Assembly: GCA_017613355.1 (NCBI GenBank)
Contig: JAGAEA010000035.1
Coordinates: forward strand, 1-45,361
Length of the DNA: 45,361 nt
Origin: Clostridia bacterium
GTDB taxonomy: Bacteria; Bacillota; Clostridia; Oscillospirales; CAG-272
Direction of reading: 5' to 3'
Shown here: positions 13,618 through 45,310 of the stretch, one piece after another
How positions within the stretch are numbered: position 1 is the first letter of the stretch
Layout: each line of letters opens with the position of its first letter
Notes under the pieces: generated by a model
Databases searched by the model: none
Seen by the model: only the letters and a program-made list of their open reading frames with translations
What the model was told of the DNA's origin: nothing
Made by a program: the position numbers and the translations under genes

Positions 13618-15387
13618 ATGAAATCGTCTCGCTTTTTGCGCATCGTGGCTTCTGTTTTGATAATTTTTACAATTGCATTTTCGCTTTATTCCTGTAACGG
13701 AGGAGGATCCAAAAATCCGATAACCGATCCGCCGTCGAAAGAAAATACGGAATGGAGCATCGGCAGTTCGGCGAGTTTTGCCGTAGTAACTCCTAAAACA
13801 CCGACTTCGGCACTTTCCGCTTCTCTGGATGCGTTGCTTTCCGCTTTTCGGAATAAAACGGGTGTTCGTCCCGAAACCAAGACCGATGAAATCAAACGAG
13901 GCGCGATTCGCGACAACACAACCTATGAGATTTTGCTTGGCAGAACTTCCTACGATCAGACAGCCGAGGTGCTGTCGAATTTGACGGAAGGGCAGTTTGC
14001 GATCGTTTTGTCCGGCAGGAAGCTGGTGATCACCACGCCGAAAGATGTCGATCTTTCTGCCGCAGTGGACTATTTCATTGAAAACTATATCAACGTCATG
14101 GAGCAATCGAACGGTGTGTATCTCCTCTCCACGGGATCCTATATAAGTCCGACGCCGGAGATTGTCGAAAAGGAAATCACAGTCAACGGAGTTAACATCG
14201 GAAATTTCGATATTGTTTATGAAAGCTCGCGCAAAGGTTACCGCGAAGTGGCGGAATATTTGCAAACCGTGATGAAGGAGTCGGGATTTACCGTTTCGGT
14301 TTATCGCGACATAGATCGTGCCGACAGCGGAACACCGGAATTTCTTGTGGGGAAAACCAACCGCGCGGTGTCTGCGCAAATGTATGGTTCGATGCCTCCG
14401 GATATTCTGACATACCGTTTGGGCGTGCAAGGAAACAAAGTACAAATTATGGGAGGAGGACCCTTCTCGGCTCATCAGTGCGTGGGTCAAATGCGAATGC
14501 GGTTTTTCGGCGCGAACGATCCGACCTATACGAACGGAACCTATCTTGAAACCGACAATTCCTTTTCCATTGGGATTACCGAAGGAACCGATGTCCGTTT
14601 GATGACCTACAACATTCTTGCGGATCGTTGGGCGTACCCCGAGGAAAGAGAAGTTCTGCCGGTATCCCACCGCGCGGAGATCATCGCGGGAGTTCTTCTT
14701 GCCTGCAAACCCGACGCGGTCGGGCTCCAAGAAACCGACCAAGCATGGATTGATGCGCTTCCTGCGTGGTTGGAGTTGCTCAAAACGCAATACGGAATCG
14801 AATACGAATGGAAATTTTACAATTATCTGAACAAACAAACGCTCACAACCATTCTCTACAGAAGCGACAAATATGACCTGATCGACTCGGGAATTGAAAA
14901 CTTTTCCTATTGGGACAACAGCGCGTATGTATATAATCTGCGCTTGATCGAGTGGGTCAATTTGCGCGAGAAAGCCGACGGCACACGTTCGTTTATTCTT
15001 GCCAATACACACTGGGGGTTTGATGAGGAAACGGAGATTTGCCTCAACGAATCGATCTCGCGCATCAATGCCTTAAAAGAACAGTACCCGGGTGTTCGCA
15101 TATTTTTCTGCGGGGATTTCAACAGCAATCAAACGTCGGAACCGTTCTTTACTTATCAAACCGAGACGGGTTCACGGGATGCCTGCACGGTAGCCATTGA
15201 AGCGGGAACGCGCGTCAACGATACGGGCGGGAACCGCGATCCCGGAAAACCGAGATATGAGGGCGGTTCCTATATCGACCACATTTTCGGGACGGGCACG
15301 TGGAGCGTTTTGAGATACGAAACGGTTTTGGGAATTTCGATCTACGGTTCCGACCACAGCCCGCATTATGCCGATATTAAATTTTAA
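13618..15387 (+). CDS. surface lipoprotein with C-terminal endonuclease/exonuclease/phosphatase (EEP) domain
   Basis: 589 residues from ATG 13618, which has GGGAGG 7 nt upstream. Lipoprotein signal with lipobox SLYSC (Cys about residue 30). Residues ~45-320 contain two similar alpha/beta segments (YEILLGRT...LSGRKLVITTPKDVDLSAAVDYF, and EFLVGKTNR...LGVQGNKVQIMGGGPFSAHQCV), reminiscent of the N-terminal domains of GH67/GH20 enzymes. Residues ~325-589 are an EEP fold: LMTYNILADRW (from 329), GLQETDQ (catalytic Glu 372), ANTHWGF, FFCGDFNS and the terminal GSDHSPHYADI with the catalytic His. EEP enzymes cleave phosphoesters in DNA, RNA, lipids or sugars; the substrate here is unknown. First gene of a six-gene operon. 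Confidence 0.85.
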   Translation: MKSSRFLRIVASVLIIFTIAFSLYSCNGGGSKNPITDPPSKENTEWSIGSSASFAVVTPKTPTSALSASLDALLSAFRNKTGVRPETKTDEIKRGAIRDNTTYEILLGRTSYDQTAEVLSNLTEGQFAIVLSGRKLVITTPKDVDLSAAVDYFIENYINVMEQSNGVYLLSTGSYISPTPEIVEKEITVNGVNIGNFDIVYESSRKGYREVAEYLQTVMKESGFTVSVYRDIDRADSGTPEFLVGKTNRAVSAQMYGSMPPDILTYRLGVQGNKVQIMGGGPFSAHQCVGQMRMRFFGANDPTYTNGTYLETDNSFSIGITEGTDVRLMTYNILADRWAYPEEREVLPVSHRAEIIAGVLLACKPDAVGLQETDQAWIDALPAWLELLKTQYGIEYEWKFYNYLNKQTLTTILYRSDKYDLIDSGIENFSYWDNSAYVYNLRLIEWVNLREKADGTRSFILANTHWGFDEETEICLNESISRINALKEQYPGVRIFFCGDFNSNQTSEPFFTYQTETGSRDACTVAIEAGTRVNDTGGNRDPGKPRYEGGSYIDHIFGTGTWSVLRYETVLGISIYGSDHSPHYADIKF

Positions 15388-15419
15388 ATTGTTTTGCACT
15401 TAAATAAGGAAACTTTAAT

Positions 15420-16289
15420 ATGTCTCAAATTTTTTATCCCAAGGAAGCTCTTCCGCGAAACGGAGCCGCTCTGCGAATCATGTCCGTCAATCTTCTTGCG
15501 GAAAGATGGTCGGAGTCGCATTGGTGTCGGGAACGGTTGCCCATGCCCGAGCGGGCGGAGGCGTTCGGAGAATTGATTTGCGCCGCATTGCCGGATGCGG
15601 TCGGTTTACAGGAAACCGACCAAGTATGGGCGAAAAATCTTCCGCCCATACTTGAACGAATACAAGAGAAAACTTCTGCGAAGTATCAGTGGCTCTTTTC
15701 CGAGGCGGAGGGAAAAGTCAATCTCTCCGGCATCCTCTATCGCAACGATCTCTATGAGGCGTTTGACCCGGAATATCGGTATGCCCCCTATTGGAGAAAA
15801 GAAAAATATCCATATAACATTCGGGAATATGTTTGGGTGCGGTTGCGAGAAAAGACGTCGGGCGCCGAAATTTGGTTGGTCAACACGCATTGGGGGATCG
15901 GCAATGAGGAGCGCATGGCAGATGCAAAAGCGCAAAGCGCCGTGGTGCAAAACCTTTTGAAGCAAAACACTCCCGTAATCTGTACCGGAGATTATAACAG
16001 CACACCCGATACCGAAGCATATCGTTTCTTCCGGAAACACACGTCGCTTTTTTCCGCAAAGGAAGAAGCGAGAGCGGAGGGAAGCCTGCTGAACGAAACG
16101 GATGGGACCGGATGGGTCGGGCGGGAGCGCACGCGCACCGATAATCAGATCGATCACATTTTTTATTCGGAAGGGCTCCGCGTGTTGCGCTATGCAACCA
16201 TGCAGGGCGGAAATTTACTTTATCTTTCCGATCATTCACCACAGATCGCCGATTTTGAATACACAAAAAAAGGAGGAACCGGTTTATGA
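15420..16289 (+). CDS. endonuclease/exonuclease/phosphatase family protein
   Basis: 289 residues, no signal peptide, so probably cytosolic. It is a paralogue of the C-terminal half of the preceding lipoprotein: RIMSVNLLAERW, DAVGLQETDQVW, SGILYRND, LVNTHWGIGNEE, ICTGDYNSTPD, then QIDHIFYSEGL and LSDHSPQIADFEY. These are the metal- and phosphate-binding and catalytic blocks of the EEP superfamily. AAGGA lies 9 nt before the ATG. It overlaps the next gene by 4 bp (ATGA), so the two are translationally coupled. A substrate cannot be read from the sequence. Confidence 0.88.
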   Translation: MSQIFYPKEALPRNGAALRIMSVNLLAERWSESHWCRERLPMPERAEAFGELICAALPDAVGLQETDQVWAKNLPPILERIQEKTSAKYQWLFSEAEGKVNLSGILYRNDLYEAFDPEYRYAPYWRKEKYPYNIREYVWVRLREKTSGAEIWLVNTHWGIGNEERMADAKAQSAVVQNLLKQNTPVICTGDYNSTPDTEAYRFFRKHTSLFSAKEEARAEGSLLNETDGTGWVGRERTRTDNQIDHIFYSEGLRVLRYATMQGGNLLYLSDHSPQIADFEYTKKGGTGL

Positions 16290-17752
16290 AAAAAAGAATT
16301 TTTCTATGGCGCTTCTTGACCGTTGTATTTGTTCTTTCCGTTTTGTTGACTTCCTGTGTCCGAAAGCCCAAAAAACCCGTGGGTGAGGACACCACCACAA
16401 CAGACATCGAAGAAACGGGTCCCCGCTTTGATGCGAACGGATATTTGATGGACGACTTGCCGGAAAAAGTCAATCTGGATCGGGAGTTCAATATTTATTC
16501 CTGGCAAGATCAAAAGCATTGGGACTGGTACGATGAAGAGGTTTACCCAACCAACCTTGTGGACATTGTTTTGTACAAGCGGCAGAGCAATATTCAGGAT
16601 CGTTTCGGGATCACCTTGAACCGCGTTTATCAACCTGGAACGTGGGACAATCGCAACGCGTTCATCACAACGCTTGCGAACAGCGTCAAATTCAATGACG
16701 GATTGTACGATCTTGTTTCCCAGTACACGCCTTGCGCGGGCATCGGCGCAACGCAGAATCTCTATGCGGACATGAACAGCATGGAGTATCTGGACTTTTC
16801 CAAACCGTGGTGGCCGTCCAAGTTGCTTTCCACGGCGCAGATCGGCGAACGGCTCTATTTCGCTTCGGGTGATATTACGCCGACGCTGATTCGAAATGTT
16901 CACTGTATGTTTGTCAACACCGGGTATTATGAGCAATACCAACTTGCCGATCTGGTGGGCGGTCGATCGATCTATGATGTAGTGCGGGACTATGATTGGA
17001 CGTTGGAAACGCTCAAACTGCTTGCGCTCGATCACGTTGCCGATGACGGAGCGGAGATGTTCGGACTTTCCTTTGTAAACAAGGTTCAGGCGGATGCGTT
17101 CTTTTTCGGCGGCGGATTTAAGTTGCTGGAAAACAACAACGGGATTTTGACGATATCACCCGAGCTTGCAAAACAGCCGATTTCGGATTGGTTTGATCAG
17201 GTTCAGAAGCTCTTTGCTGAATCTCGGTATGACGTTACTATCAAAAGCGACGCGGTTTTCCGCAACAAACAGTCGATTTTCCATTCCGGCACGATTTCTG
17301 CTTCACAGAATTTTGCGCAAGACGGTGTGCAGTTTAGCGTGCTTCCGATCCCGATGAGAAACAGCGAACAGGAAAGTTATTATACCTGCGCGTCCTTTTG
17401 GGTCGGAATGTACAGTATTCCCGCAGACGCGAAGAATTTTTCCGAATCCGCAATGATTTTGGAAGCGCTCGCTTCCGAAGGGTATCGCACGGTCACCGAT
17501 GAAATTTATTACACGCTCTTCCAAATTCGCTATAATTCCACCGACAATGTCAATTCTGCCGAGATGTTCGACGTGGTTTCGGATTCGATCGTCTTTGACA
17601 CGGCAAGATCGTTTACCGACCATCTGCAATCCATGTTCGCCGCATTTCGAAATGGCGTTACCGACGAAGCTGCGTCGTGGAGTTCTGTTTACGGATCGGG
17701 GTATCCTGCATGGAACCCCAGGGTGATATCGCTCTTTGCCATTTTGGGATAA
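16286..17752 (+). CDS. extracellular solute-binding lipoprotein (family 1-like)
   Basis: 488 residues. Signal peptide with lipobox LLTSC (Cys about residue 24) and a Thr-rich linker (DTTTTDIEE) before the mature domain. The fold resembles family 1 solute-binding proteins of sugar ABC importers: NFxIYSW start, FITTLAN, YDLVSQYTP, FSKPWWPSKL, LYFASGDITP, WTLETLKLL. No ABC permease or ATPase gene is nearby, so it is an orphan binder or works with a remote transporter. Clear paralogue of the lipoprotein at 36371-37882, sharing the blocks LDFxKPWWPxxL and LYFASGDI. Confidence 0.85.
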   Translation: MKKRIFLWRFLTVVFVLSVLLTSCVRKPKKPVGEDTTTTDIEETGPRFDANGYLMDDLPEKVNLDREFNIYSWQDQKHWDWYDEEVYPTNLVDIVLYKRQSNIQDRFGITLNRVYQPGTWDNRNAFITTLANSVKFNDGLYDLVSQYTPCAGIGATQNLYADMNSMEYLDFSKPWWPSKLLSTAQIGERLYFASGDITPTLIRNVHCMFVNTGYYEQYQLADLVGGRSIYDVVRDYDWTLETLKLLALDHVADDGAEMFGLSFVNKVQADAFFFGGGFKLLENNNGILTISPELAKQPISDWFDQVQKLFAESRYDVTIKSDAVFRNKQSIFHSGTISASQNFAQDGVQFSVLPIPMRNSEQESYYTCASFWVGMYSIPADAKNFSESAMILEALASEGYRTVTDEIYYTLFQIRYNSTDNVNSAEMFDVVSDSIVFDTARSFTDHLQSMFAAFRNGVTDEAASWSSVYGSGYPAWNPRVISLFAILG

Positions 17753-17782: not shown

Positions 17783-18991
17783 ATGAATAAAAAATGGATT
17801 TATTGCTTGCTTTCTCTCCTTTGCTTTTCTATGTTTTTAACATCCTGTTCTACGGGAAGGAAGCCCGAGGAAACAACGGAACAGACCGAATCCATCGAAG
17901 GAACCGAAACGAAAAGCACTCTTGAAGAAAGGGATCCGTCGCAGAAACGCCTGAATCATTACGCGCTCAACAACGAAACGCGCGGCATCAAAATTCTGGG
18001 TGTGCGGAATCTTGCTTCCCAAAAACAGATCAACTGCGATTGGACGGGCTCCGGCGTTGAATTTCGGGTCAACAGTCAAGGTGGAAACATGACCTTTACC
18101 GCAAAAGCCACCGCGCCCTGTTATTTCCGCGCGTATATCGACGGCGAAGCATGGACGAACGGAGGTACGTTACCGTATTTCACCGTTACAAGCGAGGAGA
18201 CCGAAATCGTGTTGCGAAACATTCCGGAAGGCGAACACACCGTTCGGTTGATCAAAGTAACGGGTTATACCATCGCCCGCGCCGAGCTTACCGGAGTCAA
18301 GTTCTATGGAAATATTCTGGGAACCGCACCTGCGGCAAAAGAGCGGTATATCGAGTTTGTGGGCGACAGTATTTGCTGCGGATGGGGAACGATCGGCGCA
18401 CATCAGGGAGCCTACACCGATCAGGACGGTATGTTGGCTTATCCCTATCTTGTTGCGGAAGCGTTGAACGCCGACTATTCGATCACCGCGCTTTCCGGTC
18501 AGGGATTGTTGATGGGCAATCCGGGTATGACGGAAGGGTATCTCTATCCGAGTCCTTTGCGGGAGAAGAAAGCGGAGTATGGCTTTTCAAGAAAGCCCGA
18601 TACCGTGGTAGTTAACATCGGGACCAATGATTACGGTTATCGGGAACAGTACGGGATCACCGCGGAAACATTCTATCAATCCTATCTTTCTTTTCTCCGC
18701 ACACTGAAACAGAAAAACGGAGAGAACTGCCGCATCGTTTGTATCTACAATACCATGAATGATACTTGGGCAAATTCCATCAAACAGGCGGTAAGCGATG
18801 TTGGGGGAGTAACGGCAGGGATCCATTTGCTCGAATTTTCGAGAGCCGCGAGTGGACACCCCACCATTTCCGAACACGCCGATTACGCAAGCGTTCTGGA
18901 AGGATTTTTGCGCGATCTTCCCGATGCTCCGGAAGAGGTTGAAAATGCGCAGGGAATGTTTGTCCGGTGGACGGAATTGTTCCCTTGCTGA
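17783..18991 (+). CDS. SGNH/GDSL esterase lipoprotein, carbohydrate esterase family 2-like
   Basis: 402 residues with lipobox FLTSC (Cys about residue 22). Residues ~60-175 form a beta-sandwich (GVEFRVNSQGGNMTFTA...YIDGE...VRLIKVTG), the N-terminal jelly-roll typical of CE2 esterases. The SGNH domain follows: FVGDSICCGWG with the nucleophile Ser196, NIGTNDYG with Asn282, and GHPTISEHA with His359. The position three residues before the His is Ala356 instead of the usual Asp, as in CE2 enzymes that use a Ser-His dyad. Likely removes acetyl groups from glycans at the cell surface. AAGGAG precedes the ATG. Confidence 0.85.
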   Translation: MNKKWIYCLLSLLCFSMFLTSCSTGRKPEETTEQTESIEGTETKSTLEERDPSQKRLNHYALNNETRGIKILGVRNLASQKQINCDWTGSGVEFRVNSQGGNMTFTAKATAPCYFRAYIDGEAWTNGGTLPYFTVTSEETEIVLRNIPEGEHTVRLIKVTGYTIARAELTGVKFYGNILGTAPAAKERYIEFVGDSICCGWGTIGAHQGAYTDQDGMLAYPYLVAEALNADYSITALSGQGLLMGNPGMTEGYLYPSPLREKKAEYGFSRKPDTVVVNIGTNDYGYREQYGITAETFYQSYLSFLRTLKQKNGENCRIVCIYNTMNDTWANSIKQAVSDVGGVTAGIHLLEFSRAASGHPTISEHADYASVLEGFLRDLPDAPEEVENAQGMFVRWTELFPC

Positions 18992-19038: not shown

Positions 19039-21246
19039 ATGAAAAGAAGCGTATCCATGATCCTGGCATTGCTCTTGACTTTTTCGGGACTTTTTGTCGG
19101 CACCGTGCTCATGGTTTCGGCAACGGAACCGGAAGGGGTCGGCATTGCCGATCTTTCCACATTGGAAAATTCGAGCGGAACCTTTTATCTCACAGCCGAC
19201 ATCGGATCGGCAGAAAACCCCGTTACAAGCTCGGTTTCGGAGTTCGGCGGGACGCTGGACGGCAACGGTCATAAAATCTATACGTCTGCTCCCGTGTTCG
19301 ATTTACTGAACGGAGCAACCGTGAAAAACCTGACGATCGAAGGAAACGTTGCCCCTGAATCAGGAGATTTTACAGCGGCTTTGGCACGCCGAAGCGCGGG
19401 AAACACAACCGTTGCGAACTGTGTCAACAACGTGAACGTTTCGCAAACGGTCACACAAGCTCCGGATAGCGGTATCGGCACTTATGCCGGTGCCGGCGGA
19501 TTCGTCGGTTTTGCGTCAGGTGGAGTCGATGTTATTGTTACCTTCAAGGATTGCGTCAATAACGGAGAGGTGGGCGCGACGTCCAGAATAAACAAGGCGA
19601 CCGTTGTCGGCGGTTATATCGCAACCGCAAAAGCAAGCGCGATTTTTGAGGATTGTGTCAATAACGGCGATATTTGGATCGATGCGACGAACGAGGCAGG
19701 AACCGCTTCAAACACGGCAATGGCAGGCGGGTTGATCGGCTGGGGCGTTACTTCTTCCATGCTGGCGAAGAATTGCGAAAACAACGGAAAAATCGAGGAT
19801 CGGTCTGCAATGATTACGGCAGGACATAAATTCGGAGGTTTGATCGCTGTTTTGCAGGGCGGGACTTACGGAACGTTTCTCGGCTGCACCAACACGGGAG
19901 ATGTTTATGGTCTCATGGCAGGCGGTCTTGTCGGAGATATTCGCAACGAGAACACCTTCACTACCTGCGTGAATCGAGGCAATATCACAAGCAAAAACGA
20001 GAAGATCTCCGGCAGTTGCATTGCTGGGGGAATGATTGCAAGTATCAATGTTAATACTGATTCTGCAATTACCCGTTGTGTCAATCTCGGAACGATTGAA
20101 GCCGAGAACAAAATGGATACCGACGCGCTGGCAGGCGGATTGATCGGGCAGATTTTGGCAAGTTCTGCCGTGAACGTGACGGAATGTGTCGGCTATGGAA
20201 CGGTCAATTCCTCTTCTTCAAAATCAGGATCGTACGGGGAAGCAGGCGGGCTTTTGGCGATGACAAAGGTAAAAGTTTCCATGACCGACTGTATTGTTTA
20301 TGGGGATATCACCGGTACTTATGCCGCAGGTGGGATCGCAGCGGAAATGCTCGTTGAGGAGTCGGTATTTACCCGCTGCATTTATACGGGAAGTGTTAAC
20401 CAAGCCTATTATCATCGCAGTTCGATTCTCGGCAAGATCACGTTTAGGGATGCCAATCCCGAAAAATATATGTTGTTGACCGATTGCTACGGGACGTTTG
20501 CAAGAGGCATCGGCGTTTATGCGCAGCCAAACGAGATCAAGGGAAATATCCGCTATATTTGGACGAATGAGAATGTTGACCAAACGATTATCGGAGGAAC
20601 CGATACCGTATCGGCAAGTGATGCGGGATCCGTGCTATCGCTTTATAACGCTCCTTTCGCAGCAAATGGATATATGCCCAAAGCGGATATGAAAGGCGTT
20701 TTTGCCGCAAAAAATCTTTCGATTCTCAATTTTGGAGACGAAACATGGATCTTGCGTGAAGATTTTCCGGAACTTGCTTTTGTGGAAACATTATTCGGAG
20801 CAAGTACGAATCCCAAAGCCGACGCTTCCATTGTGTATGTAGGCGTTCAGAATTCCGCGGTTTCCGACGGTAAGTTTGCGGTTCGGTTTGTTTCGTCGGT
20901 CGAAAGTCTTGAATACAGTAAGATCGGCGTTCGTGTGGAAGTTGCCGAAAAGGGCGTCGGGTCTGCGTTGGCGACCGAAAGGAGCAGTCGATATGTTTAT
21001 GAGCAGATCCTTGCCGCAGGGGACAACGGAGTACCAACTGCATATCCCGAAATCCCGCTTGCAAACACTTGGTTCTCGGCTTTGACGATTACCGAAATTC
21101 CCGCGTCCGGAACCTATATCTTCGTGGTTACCCCCTTTACGGTTTCCGCCGACGGCGAAACGACCGATCGAGGCGGCGCGATCGCAATCGTCTATACCGA
21201 CGGTGTATTTGTAAACCAGTATTGGTATGCGGCACCTACACGGTAA
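19039..21246 (+). CDS. exported GLUG-repeat protein with C-terminal 'GVQ' domain
   Basis: 735 residues from ATG 19039 (AAGGAG 9 nt upstream). Signal peptide cleaved about after VSA (residue 28). Residues ~60-560 hold repeats of the form GG(F/L/Y)xx..xx.xxFxxCVNNGxI, matching GLUG-type right-handed beta-helix rungs (e.g. FKDCVNNGEVG, FEDCVNNGDIW, FGGLIAVLQGG). Residues ~595-735 form a different domain starting YVGVQNSAVSDGKFAVRFVS, shared with the protein at 42385. There is no LPxTG, transmembrane anchor or cysteine tail. It is followed after 18 bp by the 44-residue peptide gene. Probably a secreted or surface-layer protein; exact role unknown. Confidence 0.8.
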   Translation: MKRSVSMILALLLTFSGLFVGTVLMVSATEPEGVGIADLSTLENSSGTFYLTADIGSAENPVTSSVSEFGGTLDGNGHKIYTSAPVFDLLNGATVKNLTIEGNVAPESGDFTAALARRSAGNTTVANCVNNVNVSQTVTQAPDSGIGTYAGAGGFVGFASGGVDVIVTFKDCVNNGEVGATSRINKATVVGGYIATAKASAIFEDCVNNGDIWIDATNEAGTASNTAMAGGLIGWGVTSSMLAKNCENNGKIEDRSAMITAGHKFGGLIAVLQGGTYGTFLGCTNTGDVYGLMAGGLVGDIRNENTFTTCVNRGNITSKNEKISGSCIAGGMIASINVNTDSAITRCVNLGTIEAENKMDTDALAGGLIGQILASSAVNVTECVGYGTVNSSSSKSGSYGEAGGLLAMTKVKVSMTDCIVYGDITGTYAAGGIAAEMLVEESVFTRCIYTGSVNQAYYHRSSILGKITFRDANPEKYMLLTDCYGTFARGIGVYAQPNEIKGNIRYIWTNENVDQTIIGGTDTVSASDAGSVLSLYNAPFAANGYMPKADMKGVFAAKNLSILNFGDETWILREDFPELAFVETLFGASTNPKADASIVYVGVQNSAVSDGKFAVRFVSSVESLEYSKIGVRVEVAEKGVGSALATERSSRYVYEQILAAGDNGVPTAYPEIPLANTWFSALTITEIPASGTYIFVVTPFTVSADGETTDRGGAIAIVYTDGVFVNQYWYAAPTR

Positions 21247-21264: not shown

Positions 21265-21399
21265 ATGAAACGATATATGAAACCCTCTTGCAAGGTCATT
21301 CCGGTATTCGCCAATGACATTTTAACCGTCAGCAACGACCCAAGAGGAATGTTTGTCGCGTTCGGCGACTTGGAAGAAGTTCCGGATGTAATCGAGTAA
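21265..21399 (+). CDS. 44-residue peptide, MK-x-Y-x-x-P family
   Basis: Starts MKRYMKPSCKVIPVF, then NDILTV, and has an acidic C-terminal half with GMFVAFGDLEEV. No signal peptide and no membrane segment. It begins 18 bp after the GLUG-protein stop with a GAGGGG ribosome site and is followed by a strong terminator. Its counterpart at 45182-45310 has the same plan: MKxYxxPxxK, then (N/D)D(I/L)LTV about residue 20, then a Gly-Met and an aromatic/Asp-rich end. Two independent copies in the same genetic position make it a real gene. The layout (conserved leader, variable tail) resembles ribosomal peptide precursors or small partner proteins, but no modifying enzyme is adjacent. Confidence 0.75.
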   Translation: MKRYMKPSCKVIPVFANDILTVSNDPRGMFVAFGDLEEVPDVIE

Positions 21400-21416: not shown

Positions 21417-21452
21417 AAAAGAACGGCGGAACCGAAATTCCGCCGTTCTTTT
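21417..21452 (+). terminator. terminator of locus 1 operon
   Basis: 15-bp perfect stem (21417-21431 with 21438-21452) ending in TTCTTTT, 17 bp after the peptide stop. Confidence 0.9.
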
Positions 21453-21539: not shown

Positions 21540-21615
21540 TGGTGGAGCATAGGGGATTCGAACCCCTGACCCCAACACTGCCAGTGTTGTGCGCTCCCAA
21601 CTGCGCTAATGCCCC
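21540..21615 (-). tRNA. tRNA-Ala(GGC)
   Basis: 76 nt with encoded CCA. Acceptor GGGGCAT/ATGCTCC, D-arm GCGCAGTTGGGAGCGC, anticodon loop CTGGCAG (anticodon GGC), T-arm with GGTTCGAATCC. Confidence 0.95.
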
Positions 21616-21624
21616 GTTTGTTGC

Positions 21625-21700
21625 TGGAGCTGGTGATAAGACTCGAACTTACGACCTGCTGATTACGAATCAGCTGCACTACCGACTGTGCTACACCAGC
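21625..21700 (-). tRNA. tRNA-Thr(CGT)
   Basis: 76 nt with encoded CCA. Acceptor GCTGGTG/CACCAGC, anticodon loop TTCGTAA (anticodon CGT), T-loop GTTCGAGTC. First in a two-gene transcript with tRNA-Ala(GGC), 9 bp apart. Confidence 0.95.
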
Positions 21701-21717
21701 ATCGCGGCAACATGAAT

Positions 21718-21746
21718 ATTATATCGGATAAAGCCCCGTTTGTCAA
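21718..21746 (-). promoter_or_regulatory. promoter of the tRNA-Thr(CGT)/tRNA-Ala(GGC) pair
   Basis: On the minus strand: TTGACA (21741-21746), 17-bp spacer, TATAAT (21718-21723). Confidence 0.9.
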
Positions 21747-21794
21747 TATTTTTTTCGAAAAAACCGAAATTTTTTGTTTTTGCAAAAAAAGTCC

Positions 21795-21823
21795 TTGACA
21801 AATTTATTTTTTCTTGCTATAAT
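21795..21823 (+). promoter_or_regulatory. promoter of tRNA-Ala(CGC)
   Basis: TTGACA (21795-21800), 17-bp spacer, TATAAT (21818-21823), 11 bp before the tRNA 5' end. Confidence 0.9.
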
Positions 21824-21834
21824 ATGTGTTGCTC

Positions 21835-21910: not shown

Positions 21911-21918
21911 ACGACATT

Positions 21919-21958: not shown

Positions 21959-22062
21959 TTGCCGCAGTCGAATTTGCGATCCGACCGATTTGCACGGCGC
22001 TTTGCTTTGCGGCGAAGAAAGGGACACCCGACGTGAAGGGCTTAACCCCGAAAAACAAAAAC

Positions 22063-37934: not shown

Positions 37935-40628
37935 ATGAAAAAACGAATCTCACTTTTGTTGATCTTCGCCCTGTCGGTCACGCTGTTGATCCCGCTCGGG
38001 GTCGTAACGGTTTCGGCGGACGAACCGACGTTGATCACGGACCAAGCGGGGCTTGCCGCCATGACGGCGGATGGAAGCTACAAGCTCGCGAACGACGTCA
38101 CCATCAGCGGAGAATGGGAAAACACCGTTTTATTCAAAGGAACGTTGGACGGCGACGGACACACCATCACCTTCGCGGATGGAGCAACGGTCAAGGGCGG
38201 TCTGTTCAGAACTCTGAACCAGGGCGCAACCATCAAGAACCTCAATATCGAAGCCGGTGACACCGTTACCTGGCAGCCCATAGCCGATGCGGCGGGCAGC
38301 GGTTCGCCGTGCGTCGGCGGTGTGGCGGCAAGCGTTGAAGCAGGCAACGTCGGCGGAACAAACAAGTGGGGTGATACGGCGTTCGTATCCGACCCCGAAA
38401 ACGTTGTCACGATCCAGAATATAACGGTAACGGCGAACATCGCGATCAGCGGTACGGTTGCCAGACCGGGAAAAGATGAAGACAAGGTCGCGGGCGGCGG
38501 TATCATCGGCGATCTCGGCATCATTTCGCTGATCAAGAACTGCACTTTCAACGGTTCGATCAGCGATGAACCGCGCGGTAAGGTTGATATGAACACGTAT
38601 GAATCCGGTTACAGCGGGATCGTGGGCGTTGCCATTCGGAACGGCGGACCGATCGTGATCATGGGCTGCGTCAACAACGCGAACATCACCGGATACGGTC
38701 AAGCGGGCGGTATTCTGGGGTATTCCAAAGGATGGGGCGGCGGCGAGACCTCGCTCATGGCTCTCGTCATTCAGAAATGCGTCAACAACGGAACGATCAC
38801 TTGTCTGCAAACCGAACTCGGTACGACCGGGAACCCCAAACGCGCGGCGGCCGGCGGGATCGTGGGTTACGCGTATGTAAAGAACGGCGCGACAGCCGAT
38901 TTCCTGCATAATATCAACTACGGTAACGTTGTTGCGGTGGCGGAGGAAGACGTGAAGATCGAGGCGGGTATCTGCGGCGTGGTTCGTCAGAAAGAAACCG
39001 TAACCTTTGAAGGAAACGTCAACCTCGGCAGCGCGAAATCGCAGATGATTAACACCGGGATCAGCAGCGGGACCGTGAATTACGTGAACAACTATGCGGC
39101 AAGCGGCACAAGCTCCGACAAATACACTGCGATCGACGAAACCGCAGGCGGACAGCTTGCCATGTTCAATGCGCTGAACGAAATCTATCCCGGCGTTTAT
39201 GTCTATGAAGAAAACAAGATCGCGCTGGCTACGGGCTCTTCCGGTTCGGATCCTTCCTCGCTGGACGTTCCCGAGGCGCTGACGCTGGACGTCACCGTTC
39301 CGGAACCCACGGGAACCGCGATCACCAACCAGAAGGAACTCGAAGCCATGACGGCGGACGGAACCTATTATCTGGCAAACGACGTTGAGATCAAGGGTTC
39401 GTTCCGATCCCTTTCGGATTTTTCCGGCGTTCTCCACGGGAACGGACATACCATTGTGTGCAACGGCGTGGAGCTCCGCGGCGGTTTCTTCAAGAGCCTT
39501 GCGGGCGGGAAAGTTTATAACCTTTCCTTTACCGAAGTGCCGGAAACGGCGGCAAAAAACAATTATCGCAGTTTGCTTTCCGCCAATGAGATCGACGTCT
39601 GCTTCGGAACGGTCGCGGGCTACGGCTACGGAACCATCGTGGGCGTAACGACGAATTGCGCGATCGGCGCGGCGCTGAAAAACACCTCCAATGCCTATGT
39701 TGGCGGCTTGATCGGCATTCTGACCGATGGCGATACCCTTATGTATAATTGCCGCAACACGGGTAAGGTTCAAGGTGGTATCGCAGGCGGCATTGTGGGA
39801 TCGGCTTCGTGCGAAAACGGCAAAATGGAGATCAGCCGCTGCGTCAACTGGGGCGAGGTCACCTCGTCGAGCGGTACGGCAGGCGGAATCGTTGCAGCCC
39901 ATCGGCTGACTGCGATGCGGGTCACCATGAGTTTGCTGGTGCTGGAAAACGTCAACTACGGCGCCATTTCCACGACCGGGTCGCGCTATTGCGGCGGCAT
40001 TGCCGGTTCGGTGGGAAGCTTCTTGGAAGGAAAGGCGTCTTTCCTGCGCAACGTCAACTACGGAACGATCACCGCAAACGCGGCTGAGATCGGATGCCCC
40101 GGCGGCGTCATCGGCTACGTCGGGTATCAAGGCATTCTGATCGCCGGCAACCTCAACCTCGGCAGCGTGTCGGGTAGCAGCGAACCGAACCGGCTGATCG
40201 CAAAGGTCGAAAGCGGCGAGGGCGTTGCCGCCGAGAATAACTTTGCGGCGGCGGGCACCGCTCCCGCAACGGTGGGCGAGACCGCAGGCACGACGATCGA
40301 CGAAAATACATTGGCAACGCTGAACGCGGCATATCCCAATGCGTATGCCAACGGAGCCGAGGGAAAGATCGCGCTCCAATGGGCAACGGGACTTTCCGCA
40401 ACCGCTCCCGAAGTGACCTACACACTGCCGGCGGCAAGCGAAGACCCTGTGCCCGGCGGCGAAACGACCGCTGTCGATTCGGGCACCGACGAGCCGGGAA
40501 CGGAAGCACCCAAACCCGGAAAAAAGAGAGGCTGCAAATCCTCGGTCGGGATCGGCGGAGCGGTGGCTCTGGTCATGATCCTCGGCGGAGCAGGAGCAAT
40601 GGCAGCGACCCGAAGAAAGGAGGACTGA
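37935..40628 (+). CDS. exported GLUG-repeat protein with Cys-transmembrane tail
   Basis: 897 residues. Signal peptide ending VSA-DE (residue 28/29). Two modules, each opening with an (I/L)xxxxxLxAMTADGxYxLANDV entry segment (residues ~35 and ~465), followed by repeats of VGGxxG...xxCVNNGxI (GLUG-type, beta-helix): e.g. MGCVNNANITGYGQAGGILG, QKCVNNGTITC, GGIVGSASCENG. A Pro/Thr/Glu-rich linker (from residue ~830) precedes KKRGCKSSVGIGGAVALVM, a hydrophobic segment and the basic-acidic end TRRKED. This resembles a surface-anchor tail without LPxTG. First of three tandem paralogues; probably an adhesin or surface coat protein. Confidence 0.82.
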   Translation: MKKRISLLLIFALSVTLLIPLGVVTVSADEPTLITDQAGLAAMTADGSYKLANDVTISGEWENTVLFKGTLDGDGHTITFADGATVKGGLFRTLNQGATIKNLNIEAGDTVTWQPIADAAGSGSPCVGGVAASVEAGNVGGTNKWGDTAFVSDPENVVTIQNITVTANIAISGTVARPGKDEDKVAGGGIIGDLGIISLIKNCTFNGSISDEPRGKVDMNTYESGYSGIVGVAIRNGGPIVIMGCVNNANITGYGQAGGILGYSKGWGGGETSLMALVIQKCVNNGTITCLQTELGTTGNPKRAAAGGIVGYAYVKNGATADFLHNINYGNVVAVAEEDVKIEAGICGVVRQKETVTFEGNVNLGSAKSQMINTGISSGTVNYVNNYAASGTSSDKYTAIDETAGGQLAMFNALNEIYPGVYVYEENKIALATGSSGSDPSSLDVPEALTLDVTVPEPTGTAITNQKELEAMTADGTYYLANDVEIKGSFRSLSDFSGVLHGNGHTIVCNGVELRGGFFKSLAGGKVYNLSFTEVPETAAKNNYRSLLSANEIDVCFGTVAGYGYGTIVGVTTNCAIGAALKNTSNAYVGGLIGILTDGDTLMYNCRNTGKVQGGIAGGIVGSASCENGKMEISRCVNWGEVTSSSGTAGGIVAAHRLTAMRVTMSLLVLENVNYGAISTTGSRYCGGIAGSVGSFLEGKASFLRNVNYGTITANAAEIGCPGGVIGYVGYQGILIAGNLNLGSVSGSSEPNRLIAKVESGEGVAAENNFAAAGTAPATVGETAGTTIDENTLATLNAAYPNAYANGAEGKIALQWATGLSATAPEVTYTLPAASEDPVPGGETTAVDSGTDEPGTEAPKPGKKRGCKSSVGIGGAVALVMILGGAGAMAATRRKED

Positions 40629-40707
40629 CCCACCCGTAAATTCTCCCGCAAATGAAATTTGGATTCCCAATTCCCCAAAAACAAACATAAAAAGGAGAAA
40701 ACCAAAC
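40629..40707 (+). repeat. conserved intergenic spacer, copy 1
   Basis: The ~79-bp gap, including ACCCACCCGTAAATTCTCCC, AATTTGGAT and the ribosome site, is nearly identical to 42307-42384, showing tandem duplication of gene plus spacer. Contains AAAAGGAGA before the next ATG. Confidence 0.85.
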
Positions 40708-42306
40708 ATGAAAAAACGCATTTCCCTATTTTTGATTTTTGCCATGTTAATCACCCTGCTCGTGCCGCTCGCAGTCACAACGGTATCGGCGGACGAACCG
40801 ACATTGATCACAGACCAGGCGAGCTTTGTCTCTGCGATCGCAACGAACAGCACCAAAGACGCGGACGGCAAGGCGACCGGCACATTCAAGCTGGCGAACG
40901 ACATCACCATCAGCGGAGAATGGAACTTTACCACCGTCTTCCGCGGAGAACTCGACGGTGACGGACACACCATCACCTTTGCGGACGGCGCTACGATCAC
41001 CAGCGGCTTGTTCGCGATGGTGAGCGCCAACGCCTACATCCACGATCTTTCCATCGTGCAGGCGGGATCGGCAACGTGGGTTCCCCAAACGGCATCCGGT
41101 TGCGTGAACGCGTGCCTCGGCGGCGTGGTCGGTCTCTCCGGCGCGGGTGCGGTGAACGGTACCAATTCCTGGGGCAACAAAGATTATACCTCGAGCGCGG
41201 ATAACAAGGTCCGCATCGAGAACGTGACCGTAACGGTCAACATGGACGTGACCGGCAGTACCCCCAACGCATCGGTCGGCGGCATCGTCGGTGAAATCGG
41301 ACTTTACACCGAAATCACGAACTGCGTTTTCAACGGCTATATCAGCGACGCGACCAATCGTTACGATAGCAGCAACGGCGACAGTAAGAGCAGTCAAGAC
41401 GGAGGTAACTCGTCGCGGAGTGCCTACGGCGGCATCGTCGGCTTCGGCTTCCGTCAGGCGGTCGTTGTGATCACCGAATGTATCAACAACGGCAATATTA
41501 CCGGCTACGGTCAGGAGGGCGGCATCCTCGGCGCGATCTCTCCCGCATGGAATGCCAACGAAACGTTCATTACGACGACCATTCAGAGATGTATCAACAA
41601 CGGAACGATCACCTGCAACGGCACGGACATTACTTCGAGCGTTGCCGGCATCGCGGCTTATCTCTACGGCAGAAGAGTGGCGGGCACGACCGTGAACGTT
41701 CTGAACAACATCAACAACGGAACGATCGCGAAAGCGGAAGGCGACGCATACATTGCCGGTATCGTTGCCCGTGTGAACCGCAAAGAGGACAAAAACGTCG
41801 TCACCTTTGCCGGCAACCTGCAGTTGAGCGAGGACGTCGGCGGCGGCAGCCAGATCATGAACCATGCGGACGGTTCCGGAGACGACGGCGTTCTGGTTTA
41901 CACGAACAACTTCGGTCGCAGTGCGGGCAACAGCACTTACAGCCCGTTGTCCGACGCTGCAGCTTACGAAGCCGCTTATGAAACTTTGAATGCGGCATAT
42001 CCCGACGTTTACACCTACAGGGAAAACAAGATCATGCTGGCATGGGTACCGGCTCCGACCGAACCCGAAGAGCCGACCACACAATCCGAAGAGCCGACCA
42101 CAGAACCCGTTGGCGAGGATGCTACCACGGCGCCGACTACGACCGAACCCGTAACCACCGCTCCCGATGACGGAACCAAAGAGTCGGGAGAAAAAGAAAA
42201 GAAGAAGGGTTGCAAATCCTCGGTCGGGATCGGCGGAGCGGTGGCTCTGGTCATGGTCCTCGGCGGAGCAGGGGCAACGGCGGCGACTCGACGGAAAGAG
42301 GACTGA
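40708..42306 (+). CDS. exported GLUG-repeat protein with Cys-transmembrane tail
   Basis: 532 residues, one-module version of its neighbours. Signal peptide (MKKRISLFLIFAMLITLLVP, VSA cleavage), entry segment ITDQASFVSAIATNSTKDAD and KLANDITISGEWNFTTVFRG, repeats such as TECINNGNITGYGQEGGILG and QRCINNGTITCNG. The C-terminal linker is rich in Glu, Pro and Thr (EEPTTQSEEPTTEPVGED). The tail KKKGCKSSVGIGGAVALVMV ... TRRKED is identical at nearly every position to that of the 897-residue protein. Little coding divergence at both ends, more in the middle. Function inferred as surface protein. Confidence 0.82.
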   Translation: MKKRISLFLIFAMLITLLVPLAVTTVSADEPTLITDQASFVSAIATNSTKDADGKATGTFKLANDITISGEWNFTTVFRGELDGDGHTITFADGATITSGLFAMVSANAYIHDLSIVQAGSATWVPQTASGCVNACLGGVVGLSGAGAVNGTNSWGNKDYTSSADNKVRIENVTVTVNMDVTGSTPNASVGGIVGEIGLYTEITNCVFNGYISDATNRYDSSNGDSKSSQDGGNSSRSAYGGIVGFGFRQAVVVITECINNGNITGYGQEGGILGAISPAWNANETFITTTIQRCINNGTITCNGTDITSSVAGIAAYLYGRRVAGTTVNVLNNINNGTIAKAEGDAYIAGIVARVNRKEDKNVVTFAGNLQLSEDVGGGSQIMNHADGSGDDGVLVYTNNFGRSAGNSTYSPLSDAAAYEAAYETLNAAYPDVYTYRENKIMLAWVPAPTEPEEPTTQSEEPTTEPVGEDATTAPTTTEPVTTAPDDGTKESGEKEKKKGCKSSVGIGGAVALVMVLGGAGATAATRRKED

Positions 42307-42384
42307 CCCACCCGTAAATTCTCCCGTAAATCAAATTTGGATCCCCAATTCCCAAAAAACAAACGTAAAAGGAGAAGACAAACC
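42307..42384 (+). repeat. conserved intergenic spacer, copy 2
   Basis: Near copy of 40629-40707 (only scattered substitutions), ending AAAAGGAGAAGACAAACC before ATG 42385. Confidence 0.85.
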
Positions 42385-45162
42385 ATGAAAAAACGCATTT
42401 CCCTATTTCTGGTCTTTGCCATGTTGGTCACGCTGCTCGTACCGCTCGCCGTTACAACGGTATCGGCGGATGAACCGACATTGATCACAGACCAGGCAGG
42501 GCTTGCCGCAATGTCGGCAAGCGGCAACTACAAGTTGGCGAACGATGTCACCATCAGCGGAACGTGGGATTATTCCACCACGTTTACGGGAACGCTGGAC
42601 GGTGACGGACACACGATTACCCTTGCGAATGGTACCACCATGACCGGCGGTCTGTTCCGGCAGTTGAGTTCGAAAGCAACCGTTAAGAACCTCAACATCG
42701 TGCAGGCGGGCGGTGTGACCTATACGCCCGTCGCGCCGGACGGAAGCGGCGCGTACTGCGTCGGCGTGCTTGCTGCAAGCATCGAATATCCGTCCGATTG
42801 CAATAACACCTCGATCACCGCGAATGCCTCGAACACGATTTATATTCGGAATGTAAATGTTACGGCAAATATCACCTCGATCACCACAATCGATAACGAA
42901 AAAGGTTATGCGGTCGGCGGGATCGTCGGCGAGATCGGCATGGTCACGAGCATTACAAACTGCACGTTCAACGGTTCGATTAGTGACGTTAATCGCAGCA
43001 AAACTGATATGAGTGCGAAAGTGAGCGGTTACGGCGGAATTATCGGCGTGGCGATCAGAAACGGCGGACCGGTTGAAGTTACCGAATGTGTCAACAACGG
43101 TAATATTACCGGCTACGGACAGGTGGCAGGAATTTTCGGATATTCCCGCGCATGGAGCGGCGGCGGAACCGGTCTTGCATCCGTTATCATTGAGAGATGT
43201 GTCAACTACGGATCAATCTATTGTGCAGAGACCGCCGCAACCGGAACTGCGGGTGGAATCGCGGGTTATATTTATGTTAAAGACGGAGCGACCGGAGTCG
43301 TAAACAACAACATCAACTATGGTTTTGTAACGATGAACGCAGCGTCTACTGCGACCGCTTCCGGTATTGTTACCCGTTTTCGTAGGGGAACCTTGTCGAT
43401 CTGTGGAAATGTCAACTATGGGACGTTGACGGCAAATAGCGGCGGTCATACCGGTAGTTATTACTATACGATGGAAGGCGACGGTTCTCTGACAACAGAC
43501 AACAACTATAACAATCCAGCAGCTGCTACGGCGGACACATTGAACGCAACCTATGCCGATGTTTACACTCAATACGGCAATCGGGTTGCACTGGCATGGG
43601 AACGCGGAGAGTACACACAGAGCGGTAGCCTATCATCCAATCTGGTCAGTAATCAAGCGGATCTTGCCGCAATGTCAACATCCGGCAGCTATACGCTGGC
43701 GAATGATATTACAATTACCGGCACGTGGGATTATCTTTCTGCATTCACAGGCACGTTGAACGGAAACGGACACACGATCACTTTTGCGGTCGGTGCCGTC
43801 ATCAATGGCGGATTGTTCCGACAGTTGGGTGGAAGTGCCACGGTTAAGGATCTGAACATCGTGCAAGCGGGAAGAGCAAGCTGGAATCCCACAAAAGCAA
43901 ACGGTCAAAGCGGTATGCCAATCGGGGGAGTTGCGGCAAGTGTTTATAGTACGACGAGCAACACCATTACCATTCAGAATGTGAATGTAACAGCAACGAT
44001 TGTCGAAGGTGGCGGAAGCGATCCGCAACGTGTTTGTGTTGGTGGCATTGCTGGCGATGTCAGATCCGTAAAAGGTGTGATCCGGAACTGTACCTTTACC
44101 GGTTCGATTACTGATACGTCAGCCAACCGCAGCGACACAGATATGAGTAGGAAACAGAGTGGATTTGGCGGTATCGTGGGAACCGTTGCCGACAATAACA
44201 CCACTTTAACGGTCACCGAATGCATCAACAATGGTGCGATTAGCTCGTATAGTCAGGTAGGCGGTATTTTGGGTGTTGGTCGAGCTTGGGGCGGTGGCAG
44301 CACAGCACCCGCCGATGTTACCATTCAAAGATGCATCAACAATGGAACGATTACTTGTCTTGGAACCACCAATGCATCGAGCGTCGGTGGTATCGCGGGG
44401 TATATTTACGTAAAGAACGGATCGACCGCGAATGTTCGCTACTGCATTAACACCGGCACGATTGCAAGAGCCGATGGCAGTGCTGCGTATGCGGCAGGTA
44501 TCGTCGGCGGAATACGGCGCGGTGTGGATAATGCCGTTCAGTTCCTCGGTAACTTGCAGGAAAGCGACGCGATCGTAGGGACGCAGATTGCACAAACGCC
44601 GGACGGCTCCGGTGTCGTCGCTTTCACGAACAACTTCGGTCGCGGAGAAGGCAACAGCACTTACAGCCCGTTGACCTATACGAAGAACTACGTTGACGCA
44701 TATATCGCGCTGAATGCGGCGTATGCCGATACCTATGTTTTCCGCAATAACAAAGTGACTCTTGCATGGGCGGATGACGCGGTGTTCAATACCGTTACCT
44801 CGGTGATCGGTGCGCAGCTTTCCAATGTTGCCGGCGAGACCCGCAGTATCCGCATGGTTGCCGGAACGACCGATGACCTGACCGTGGACACGGTCGGCGT
44901 CGATGTGAAAGTTTACTACGGTACCGAAGGCGCGTCCAGAGGATTTACCGGCGACACCGATACGGTTTATACGTCCGTTTATGCCGCGGGTGTCCCCGTC
45001 ACGGCGGCAAGCCAAGGCGTGGATTATCTCTACACGGCAACGCTGGATAACGTTCCGACGTCGATCGGCGTGGTGACGCTGTTGATCCGTACCTTCCACG
45101 AGAAGGGCGGCGAAACCTATTACAGCGATTACACCGCTATGACGCTGGATCTCGCATCCTGA
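42385..45162 (+). CDS. exported GLUG-repeat protein with C-terminal 'GVQ-like' domain
   Basis: 925 residues from ATG 42385. Signal peptide as its neighbours. Two modules, each opening with xLAAMSxSGxYxLANDxTI(S/T)GTWDY (residues ~35 and ~425), followed by GLUG-type rungs (TECVNNGNITGYGQVAGIFG, ERCVNYGSIYC, TECINNGAISSYSQVGGILG, QRCINNGTITC). The end is different from its tandem partners: no Cys-transmembrane tail, but a ~120-residue domain from about 803 (VIGAQLSNVAGETRSIRMVA, then VGVDVKVYYG), homologous to the C-terminus of the locus 1 GLUG protein. The 42-residue peptide gene follows after 19 bp. Confidence 0.82.
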   Translation: MKKRISLFLVFAMLVTLLVPLAVTTVSADEPTLITDQAGLAAMSASGNYKLANDVTISGTWDYSTTFTGTLDGDGHTITLANGTTMTGGLFRQLSSKATVKNLNIVQAGGVTYTPVAPDGSGAYCVGVLAASIEYPSDCNNTSITANASNTIYIRNVNVTANITSITTIDNEKGYAVGGIVGEIGMVTSITNCTFNGSISDVNRSKTDMSAKVSGYGGIIGVAIRNGGPVEVTECVNNGNITGYGQVAGIFGYSRAWSGGGTGLASVIIERCVNYGSIYCAETAATGTAGGIAGYIYVKDGATGVVNNNINYGFVTMNAASTATASGIVTRFRRGTLSICGNVNYGTLTANSGGHTGSYYYTMEGDGSLTTDNNYNNPAAATADTLNATYADVYTQYGNRVALAWERGEYTQSGSLSSNLVSNQADLAAMSTSGSYTLANDITITGTWDYLSAFTGTLNGNGHTITFAVGAVINGGLFRQLGGSATVKDLNIVQAGRASWNPTKANGQSGMPIGGVAASVYSTTSNTITIQNVNVTATIVEGGGSDPQRVCVGGIAGDVRSVKGVIRNCTFTGSITDTSANRSDTDMSRKQSGFGGIVGTVADNNTTLTVTECINNGAISSYSQVGGILGVGRAWGGGSTAPADVTIQRCINNGTITCLGTTNASSVGGIAGYIYVKNGSTANVRYCINTGTIARADGSAAYAAGIVGGIRRGVDNAVQFLGNLQESDAIVGTQIAQTPDGSGVVAFTNNFGRGEGNSTYSPLTYTKNYVDAYIALNAAYADTYVFRNNKVTLAWADDAVFNTVTSVIGAQLSNVAGETRSIRMVAGTTDDLTVDTVGVDVKVYYGTEGASRGFTGDTDTVYTSVYAAGVPVTAASQGVDYLYTATLDNVPTSIGVVTLLIRTFHEKGGETYYSDYTAMTLDLAS

Positions 45163-45181
45163 ACCGAAGGAGGAAACAGAT

Positions 45182-45310
45182 ATGAAACAGTATACACAAC
45201 CGGAACTGAAAATCTATGAGATCACAGACGATCTGTTGACTGTTAAAGACAGCGCCGAGCAAGGCAACGGCATGTCCAACATTACCTTCGATTGGGACGT
45301 TTATACTTAA
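45182..45310 (+). CDS. 42-residue peptide, MK-x-Y-x-x-P family
   Basis: MKQYTQPELKIYEI, then DDLLTV at residues 16-21, then Gly/Asn-rich GNGMSN and an aromatic/Asp-rich end (FDWDVYT). Begins 19 bp after the GLUG protein with an ideal AAGGAGG. Same architecture, spacing and genomic position as 21265-21399. No signal peptide. A terminator follows. Function unknown. Confidence 0.78.
   Translation: MKQYTQPELKIYEITDDLLTVKDSAEQGNGMSNITFDWDVYT

Follow-up and report, generated by a model that had tools for sequence, protein, structure and literature searches.

Short peptides with lasso-like leaders encoded beside surface-protein genes in a Clostridia bacterium: predicted RiPP-type precursors and a candidate shared processing set encoded elsewhere

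Most of the known ribosomally synthesized and post-translationally modified peptides (RiPPs) serve as antibiotics, signals, or cofactors and are produced from self-contained clusters. Here, we describe a family of short peptide genes first seen in a 45,361-bp stretch of DNA (hereafter the window), which is the entire contig JAGAEA010000035.1 (C33 in our numbering) of the Clostridia bacterium assembly GCA_017613355.1 (the source genome, G000; 1.37 Mb, 49 contigs, 76% complete). The window carries 2 loci in which genes for endonuclease/exonuclease/phosphatase (EEP) hydrolases, a solute-binding-type lipoprotein, and GLUG-type exported proteins are followed by a gene for a peptide of 42 to 44 residues beginning with MK-x-Y-x-x-P. 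We propose, with a probability of roughly 0.7, that these peptides are RiPP-type precursors, as predicted from their sequences, and that their genes, scattered among numerous surface-protein operons, depend on a single central processing set consisting of an HPr-kinase-like protein, a PqqD protein, and an S26-type protease.

Among the described systems, the closest are lasso peptides with a tailoring kinase and a nucleotidyltransferase (paeninodin and pseudomycoidin types), which share with the present family the YxxP leader and a discrete PqqD (B1) protein as well as, in the fuller clusters found here, an HPr-kinase homologue, a nucleotidyltransferase, and an ABC exporter (PMC8498205, PMC7533575). 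In some lasso peptides, the C-terminal Ser is first phosphorylated and subsequently glycosylated by homologues of the kinase and the nucleotidyltransferase (PMC8498205), and YxxP is a motif by which lasso-peptide leaders are recognized by their RiPP recognition element (RRE) (PMC12710340). By contrast, in the present case the lasso B2 protein (PF13471) was over the cut-off in 0/25 peptide-encoding genomes of the family sample (defined below), a cyclase was not seen among the commonest neighbour families, an S26-type protease is present instead, the leader of approximately 23 residues ends in D-x-x-T-x-S, and the precursors lie beside surface-protein genes. The HPr-rel-A system (TIGR04352/TIGR04353) likewise combines an HPrK-related protein with a PqqD-type chaperone, but the source-genome scores are 17.0 against a cut-off of 200 and 15.9 against a cut-off of 35, and identity with this system was rejected by comparison with these two models. 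Prochlorosin precursors are scattered in the genome, and we know of no link between them and surface-protein genes. They resemble the present peptides in that one modifier serves many variable precursors (PMC10783134), but differ in the lanthionine chemistry performed by a ProcM-type enzyme. Finally, type I signal peptidases and SEC11 (S26) share with the protease considered here the Ser, His, and Asp motifs and weak profile matches, whereas here an N-terminal membrane anchor was not seen, the gene is paired with PqqD, and the protein has no Pfam match up to E 0.1. Because defining features of both were looked for and not found, the system is classed neither as a lasso peptide nor as HPr-rel-A; its logic is that of an RRE-dependent RiPP with lasso-type recognition, whose protease, B2 below cut-off, dispersed precursors, and surface partners fit no family tested. 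In searches of the open-licence literature (preprints and subscription papers being outside this scope), none of 6 variants of the leader motif was found in print, no such arrangement appeared in the titles and abstract openings retrieved, and the papers combining HPr kinase with PqqD were lasso peptide papers. A defence system was also rejected, with 6 proteins yielding no PADLOC match at E ≤ 0.01.

The peptides of the window, peptide 1 (44 residues, positions 21265 to 21399, plus strand) and peptide 2 (42 residues, positions 45182 to 45310, plus strand), have no Pfam or NCBIfam match up to E 1. They start 18 and 19 bp, respectively, past genes for exported proteins with an undescribed C-terminal domain (CTD), and an AGGAGG ribosome-binding site is located 8 bases 5' of the ATG of peptide 2. 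In an alignment of 36 peptides, the leader (approximately 23 residues) comprises a Tyr, usually a Pro three residues on, and then D-[ILV]-[ILV]-T-x-S, with the Asp 10 to 12 residues past the Pro. The Tyr, the Asp, and the last Ser of T-x-S are conserved at ≥90% and the Pro at <90%, the exceptions including YxxL and YxxM, whereas the tail is variable and hardly alignable. The 36 peptides thus display the short precursor, conserved leader, and variable core of RRE-dependent RiPPs, and the leader carries a known RRE motif. The family was followed in a same-genus set (the source genome, G028, which is 97% complete, and G090), in a family sample of 98 genomes (25 with the peptide at E ≤ 0.01 and 73 without), and in a class sample of 196 genomes (25 with and 171 without), the source genome being the sole overlap between the 2 larger samples. 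The family-sample count of 25/98 is a lower bound, with the peptides of G048 and G075 having been found only by reading a site. Profile searches detected 13 copies in G028, 12 in G090, and up to 15 per genome in the class sample. Three class-sample genomes of one genus (G111, G142, and G192), with 15, 11, and 7 peptide matches, have 2 PqqD matches each, perhaps reflecting a second expansion.

The strongest association of the peptides lies beyond the window and links them to the distant set of PqqD, HPr-kinase-like protein, and S26-type protease. A discrete PqqD protein in the same genome, as expected for an RRE-dependent RiPP, was found in 25/25 peptide genomes of both samples, in the family sample over the PF05402 cut-off. 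At E ≤ 1e-11, the family-sample figures are 24/25 peptide genomes versus 30/73 others (p 5e-7; the 25th genome has its match at E 2.9e-7), and at E ≤ 1e-8, those of the class sample are 25/25 peptide genomes, from 15 families, versus 50/171 others (p 2e-12), although these and the other p values given here are too strong because related genomes are not independent. The peptide gene lies within 5 kb of PqqD in 5/25 peptide genomes of the family sample (G043, G044, G053, G057, and G095), where reading of the surroundings revealed the kinase nearby in 5/5 and the S26 protease in 4/5; in 2 relatives, the neighbours of the peptide are a kinase-like gene plus PqqD in one and a kinase-like gene in the other. 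In the class sample, 7/25 genomes show linkage within the same distance, corresponding to 7 of the 12 with a single peptide match and none of the 13 with multiple matches. This is the pattern expected of a central machine with dispersed precursors, although the single-copy rule is a tendency only, since 2 of the 5 linked family-sample genomes carry 2 copies. At the G057 locus (L087, contig C57), a radical SAM/SPASM maturase-like gene, the best NCBIfam match of which is far below the cut-off, is located between the peptide and PqqD, and an adjoining partial repeat protein of 1,921 residues runs off the contig.

The 3 processing genes form an operon in the source genome, G028, and G090; that of the source genome is tight and located on a contig separate from the window (G000:C9:2898-4344). 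The kinase-like protein has His81, G99-x-G-K, T104, H105, and Asp122 as invariants in 17 sequences, and the P-loop, upstream His, and downstream Asp characteristic of the HPr kinase superfamily are invariant in 17 and in 27 sequences. The invariants of the protease (Ser23, His63, and Asp78; 13 sequences) correspond to the S26 catalytic motifs, and the nearest PDB matches of its profile are signal peptidase I (E 7e-4) and SEC11C (E 6e-3). The source-genome PqqD (G000:C9:3620-3886) is closest in PDB to the lasso B1 proteins TbiB1 (E 3e-4) and TfuB1 (E 4e-4), and its best NCBIfam match, under the cut-off, is lasso PqqD. A scan of named genomes for the kinase-like protein returned at least 590 relatives, and among the best 80 loci, PqqD was found within 3 kb in 59, an S26 protease within 4 kb in 55, and the peptide within 3 kb in 19 and anywhere in the locus in 22; in a shuffled control, 0/10,248 short open reading frames (ORFs) matched the leader profile. 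The titles of these 80 loci are mostly of Clostridia or related Firmicutes, most of them metagenome-assembled genomes (MAGs), with a minority from Synergistaceae, Spirochaetales, Erysipelotrichaceae, Atopobiaceae, Prevotellaceae, and Streptococcus merionis, and the nearest titled loci to the source-genome operon are from Clostridia MAGs (66 and 69% identity). The fuller clusters, on reading, comprise an exported protein, the peptide(s), kinase, PqqD, and protease, some with an ABC exporter and a PF14907 nucleotidyltransferase in addition. A Pfam scan covering 90 of the 141 neighbours listed for these 19 peptide loci, including all but one of the 19 kinases, identified 17 PqqD, 10 PF14907, 8 ABC exporter, and 3 radical SAM proteins. 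The nucleotidyltransferase was dropped as a required part: PF14907 is found in 23/25 peptide genomes but not in G028, with its 13 peptides, or G041, and the source-genome copy sits among putative polysaccharide genes.

The pairing of a surface protein with a peptide partner, put forward in a first-pass annotation of the window, is the best supported of its claims. In the regions from the 3 same-genus genomes, a same-strand exported gene is found no more than 150 bp away for 31 of 36 peptides, versus 45/304 other non-exported genes (p 4e-18), with genes called by a small purpose-made codon-bias caller and "exported" assigned by a crude hydrophobicity rule. The corresponding counts are 8/8 in the source genome (excluding weak peptides on contigs C7 and C17, which fall below the threshold), 16/16 in G028, and 7/12 in G090. 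Many of the peptide-adjacent exported proteins have in common the CTD, which spans approximately 120 residues and is mostly C-terminal; the one preceding peptide 1 (positions 20833 to 21225, plus strand), delimited by alignment, has no PDB match up to E 1 and no Pfam or NCBIfam match covering it. Across the 98 family genomes, 18 CTDs were found in G028, 10 in the source genome, 14 in 8 others together, and none in G090. Eleven of the 13 G028 peptides sit within 150 bp after a CTD, a fraction free of the bias affecting the reverse ones: 15/18 CTDs in G028 and 8/10 in the source genome are accompanied by a peptide (weak peptides and either side counted), but these fractions lean upward because the CTD profile was seeded from peptide-adjacent proteins. 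The remaining 7 G028 CTDs include 4 with an adjoining peptide missed by the family search and 3 without any seen. Of the 8 other CTD genomes, only G081 has a profile-search peptide match; among the sites read, 1 of 2 in G081 and those of both G048 and G075 have a peptide. The CTD as a universal partner was dropped, given that none passed in G090, where a divergent form is present at 2 loci. The gene order is reversed at several loci, where the peptide gene immediately precedes the exported gene (L013 6448-6585, L305, L306, L310, L186, L187, L190, and L192).

At some loci, the tail of the peptide resembles the end of a small neighbouring protein, which is a lipoprotein or of SLH type and has a Pro/Thr-rich stalk, as in the tail pairs SIELPVIPIG/PIELPVIPID (L272), EMPENMTPIS/TMPENMTCIS (L045/L088), and PIELPFVPAF/GELPFVPAE (L271). 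Among the 93 of 117 distinct peptides that have a same-strand exported neighbour within 2.5 kb, 6 reach a score of at least 25, versus 0.3 expected from mismatched pairs, and 0/10,000 permutations were as good. Since the lipoprotein tail would lie outside the cell, this suggests that the peptide tail acts there as well.

In the mechanism that we envisage, PqqD would grip the YxxP leader via its Tyr and Pro, like lasso B1 proteins, and the kinase-like enzyme would phosphorylate the bound precursor. The conserved T-x-S may itself be the kinase target, because tails such as NDPRGMFVAFGDLEEVPDVIE contain no Ser, Thr, or Tyr. The S26 protease would cut after T-x-S, which would fit the small-x-small rule of signal peptidases, freeing a short, often acidic peptide. 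The latter would leave the cell (an ABC exporter occurs in the clusters of some relatives) and may act together with the co-expressed surface protein on the outside, the CTD being a possible docking site. The locus would keep surface tools around the peptide gene, here EEP hydrolases, an esterase, and a binding lipoprotein, and these genes would suit the capture and trimming of outside polymers. It is conceivable, if on balance doubtful, that this amounts to a matching of surface components, in which every surface protein is produced along with a dedicated processed peptide that docks on its CTD outside, stalked lipoproteins with the same tail compete with it or tether the surface protein to the membrane, and one PqqD/kinase/S26 machine licenses or releases the whole repertoire together. 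The precursors appear scattered, at one or two per surface-protein operon, with the processing set apart, and in genomes like the source genome most of them would be overlooked by a search confined to the vicinity of the enzyme genes. If the proposal is correct, the PqqD/HPr-kinase/S26 sets of many Clostridia and some other groups gain a substrate family, a class of 35- to 50-residue genes gains a role, and a testable hypothesis emerges for the way in which gut bacteria manage their surface-protein repertoires.

Several observations weigh against assigning the peptides to the processing set and to surface partners. The source-genome operon shows no linkage to the peptides found, and an exporter was not identified in this 76% complete genome; among the 80 kinase loci, 61 have no peptide within 3 kb at the threshold (some flanks being short), and 50/171 class-sample genomes encode PqqD but no detected peptide. 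The match of the kinase-like protein to PF07475 is weak (E ~1e-4, in 3/18 kinases scanned), and PDB HPr kinases appear at E 0.38 to 0.39, behind generic P-loop matches. Conserved residues are confined to the leader, and some tails have no Ser, Thr, or Tyr. By the rule used, 5/12 G090 peptides are without an exported neighbour; no CTD passed in G090, and the domain is present in 7 family genomes without a peptide match, although the 2 of these read at a site (G048 and G075) both have a missed peptide. The tail resemblance is rare (6/93) and does not occur in the window, and 3 of the 6 pairs (L157, L045/L088, and L272) were noticed before the test and prompted it, with a fourth pre-noticed pair (L035) falling outside the best 25.

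Alternatively, the peptide might be an unmodified small protein aiding the neighbouring surface protein, as an export helper, intracellular plug, or translation-coupled regulator, with PqqD and the kinase serving something else and co-occurring by shared ancestry. The tight coupling of the peptides to exported genes, the separation of the source-genome operon from them, and the fact that no maturation enzyme was noticed on reading the 7 source-genome loci described below would all be accommodated by this explanation. We nevertheless regard it as unlikely: several lineages, among them MAGs with Synergistaceae and Oscillospiraceae titles, have the peptide directly adjoining the PqqD/HPrK/S26 set, and in Streptococcus merionis and a Spirochaetales record the two lie 2.6 and 3.5 kb apart; PqqD co-occurs in 25/25 class-sample peptide genomes across 15 families; and the conservation lies in a leader-like N-terminus bearing the lasso RRE motif.

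The 2 window loci belong to a wider family of loci marked by the binding lipoprotein, represented by WIN1 in locus 1 (positions 16286 to 17752, plus strand; no Pfam match, 29% identity and E 7e-47 to WIN2) and WIN2 in locus 2 (positions 36371 to 37882, plus strand; PF01547, E 4e-6). A search with WIN2 revealed 7 paralogues in the source genome. The surroundings of the 5 outside the window (16 to 20 kb each) contain large exported proteins in 5/5 and one or two family peptides of 37 to 46 residues each, one of them with YxxL rather than YxxP; an AraC-type gene was also recognized by reading in the stretch examined at all 5. Conversely, a search of the whole genome with a profile of 8 peptides returned 8 peptides at E ≤ 2e-11, all within the 7 binding-protein loci, and weak matches on C17 (E 0.02), following an exported CTD protein, and C43 (E 1.4), with no exported-gene neighbour; an extra weak peptide was seen by inspection on C7. 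The C43 match (G000:C43:22649-22729, L023) lies in a 65-residue ORF with the leader-like YQTPKAE...D[VI]I occurring twice, beside a helix-turn-helix gene. In G028, 11/13 peptides have one of the 18 binding-protein paralogues no more than 9 kb away (random-placement p ~4e-8), lending support to the earlier suggestion of a repeated unit, and one G028 locus (C4:82500-99000, L159) has the order of locus 1 minus the esterase: 2 EEP-like genes (by reading), the binding protein, an exported CTD protein, and the peptide. In G090, by contrast, a single binding protein was detected at E ≤ 1e-6 alongside 12 peptides, and the binding protein was dropped as an essential part. From translations, an EEP-like domain seems to be fused C-terminally to GLUG/CTD-type exported proteins at 3 loci (L012 14770-18426, L009 5985-8630, and L013 489-3089), and metallo-beta-lactamase-like exported proteins seem to occupy the place of EEP in L010, L011, and L012.

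Viewed from this side, the loci could be polymer-capture units resembling polysaccharide utilization loci under AraC control, in which the binding lipoprotein, EEP hydrolase, and esterase are the main components and the peptide a minor accessory. Although the proximity of binding proteins to 11/13 G028 peptides, the AraC genes near both window loci and, by reading, the 5 other source-genome loci, and the CE2 esterase of locus 1 favour such units, no glycoside hydrolase or sugar permease was seen inside the 2 window loci (by reading), and the 12 peptides retained by G090 with a single binding protein speak against them. As a replacement for the RiPP-type proposal this is improbable, more so than an unmodified peptide; it concerns the locus rather than the peptide, and the two are not mutually exclusive. 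That the peptides are lasso-peptide precursors is very improbable and was rejected: the YxxP leader, lasso-type PqqD, HPrK-like kinase, PF14907, and ABC exporter are also seen in lasso clusters, but B2 has only 2 weak part-matches, in G028 and G090, besides its 0/25 over the cut-off, the 25 commonest of 47 Pfam families among the 90 cluster neighbours include no lasso cyclase (no genome-wide cyclase search having been made), and the aligned tails, inspected by eye, have no consistent Gly1 with Asp/Glu at 7 to 9.

The first-pass annotation had suggested that the 2 window loci are a functional unit duplicated within 32 kb. In a maximum likelihood tree of 26 binding proteins from the 3 same-genus genomes, the closest neighbour of WIN1 is a G028 protein (55% identity, support 100/100) in a clade of 3 sequences (100/99), whereas WIN2 is placed on a separate, deeper branch. 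For the binding-protein family, the only one for which a tree was built, the window loci are therefore not mutual nearest relatives, and a recent two-locus duplication was rejected on this basis; they look like old members of a locus family rather than a recent pair.

The gene families and their order reported for both loci were recovered by Pfam scans and ORF reading, as were the peptide at the end of each locus and the components specific to one of them. Locus 1 (all plus strand) opens with an EEP-domain lipoprotein (positions 13618 to 15387; PF03372, E 9.9e-15; lipobox; the longest ORF begins at 13450 and the lipoprotein start is 13618) and an EEP hydrolase in which a signal sequence was not seen (15420 to 16289; PF03372, E 7.1e-16), followed by WIN1, a CE2-like GDSL esterase lipoprotein (17783 to 18991; PF17996, 4.9e-9; PF13472, 2.3e-10), and the GLUG-like exported protein carrying the CTD (19039 to 21246; PF05342, 1.3e-6; CTD hidden Markov model (HMM), 2.5e-33). 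An AraC-type regulator (12335 to 13351, minus strand; PF12833, 3e-17) is divergent from the locus. Locus 2 (also plus strand) comprises an EEP hydrolase (35500 to 36273; PF03372, 6e-17), WIN2, 2 tail-anchored GLUG-type proteins (37935 to 40628, with a K[RK]GCKSS-hydrophobic-RRKED anchor, and 40708 to 42306), and a GLUG-type exported protein ending in the CTD, with no tail anchor (42385 to 45162; CTD HMM, 3e-29; domain at 44800 to 45159 by HMM and alignment). Upstream, separated by 2 minus-strand genes, lies another AraC-type regulator (32029 to 32862, plus strand; PF12833, 4e-24). The 3 locus 2 proteins match PF07581 at E 0.0027 to 0.018, under the curated cut-off, whereas the locus 1 protein has no match to the Glug model up to E 1, PF05342 being its sole match. 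The window proteins thus resemble GLUG-motif surface proteins through weak PF07581/PF05342 matches, but one protein per locus differs in having the undescribed CTD and a paired peptide gene. A GC-rich hairpin is present 3' of both peptides. That of locus 1 (21420 to 21449, plus strand; terminator-like, 12-bp stem then TTTG) was read from the sequence and is not in the hairpin scan list; the 15-bp GC hairpin of locus 2 (45320 to 45352, no strand assigned) is followed by 9 further bases without a T-run before the contig ends.

The tail anchor, in the general form K[RK]GC[KR]S-hydrophobic stretch-[RK]K-rich acidic end, recurs in GLUG-type and other exported proteins (window 40520-40692 and 42198-42370, L012 8252-9850, L013 12626-14254, and L010 16438-18840), and the 2 window stretches share 90% DNA identity. 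Near locus 1, positions 8009 to 10807 encode a putative glucosamine-6-phosphate deaminase and an APH-family kinase (PF01636), hinting at amino-sugar use, and between the loci (29526 to 35067) are 2 MGH1-like glycosidases (PF22422) and a xylose-isomerase-like TIM barrel. Locus 1 is directly followed by 4 tRNA genes (Ala-GGC, Thr-CGT, Ala-CGC, and Thr-GGT; 21540 to 22169), and a T-box leader (RF00230, 23049 to 23262, 140.6 bits) is located upstream of a putative valyl-tRNA synthetase gene (23326 to 25986).

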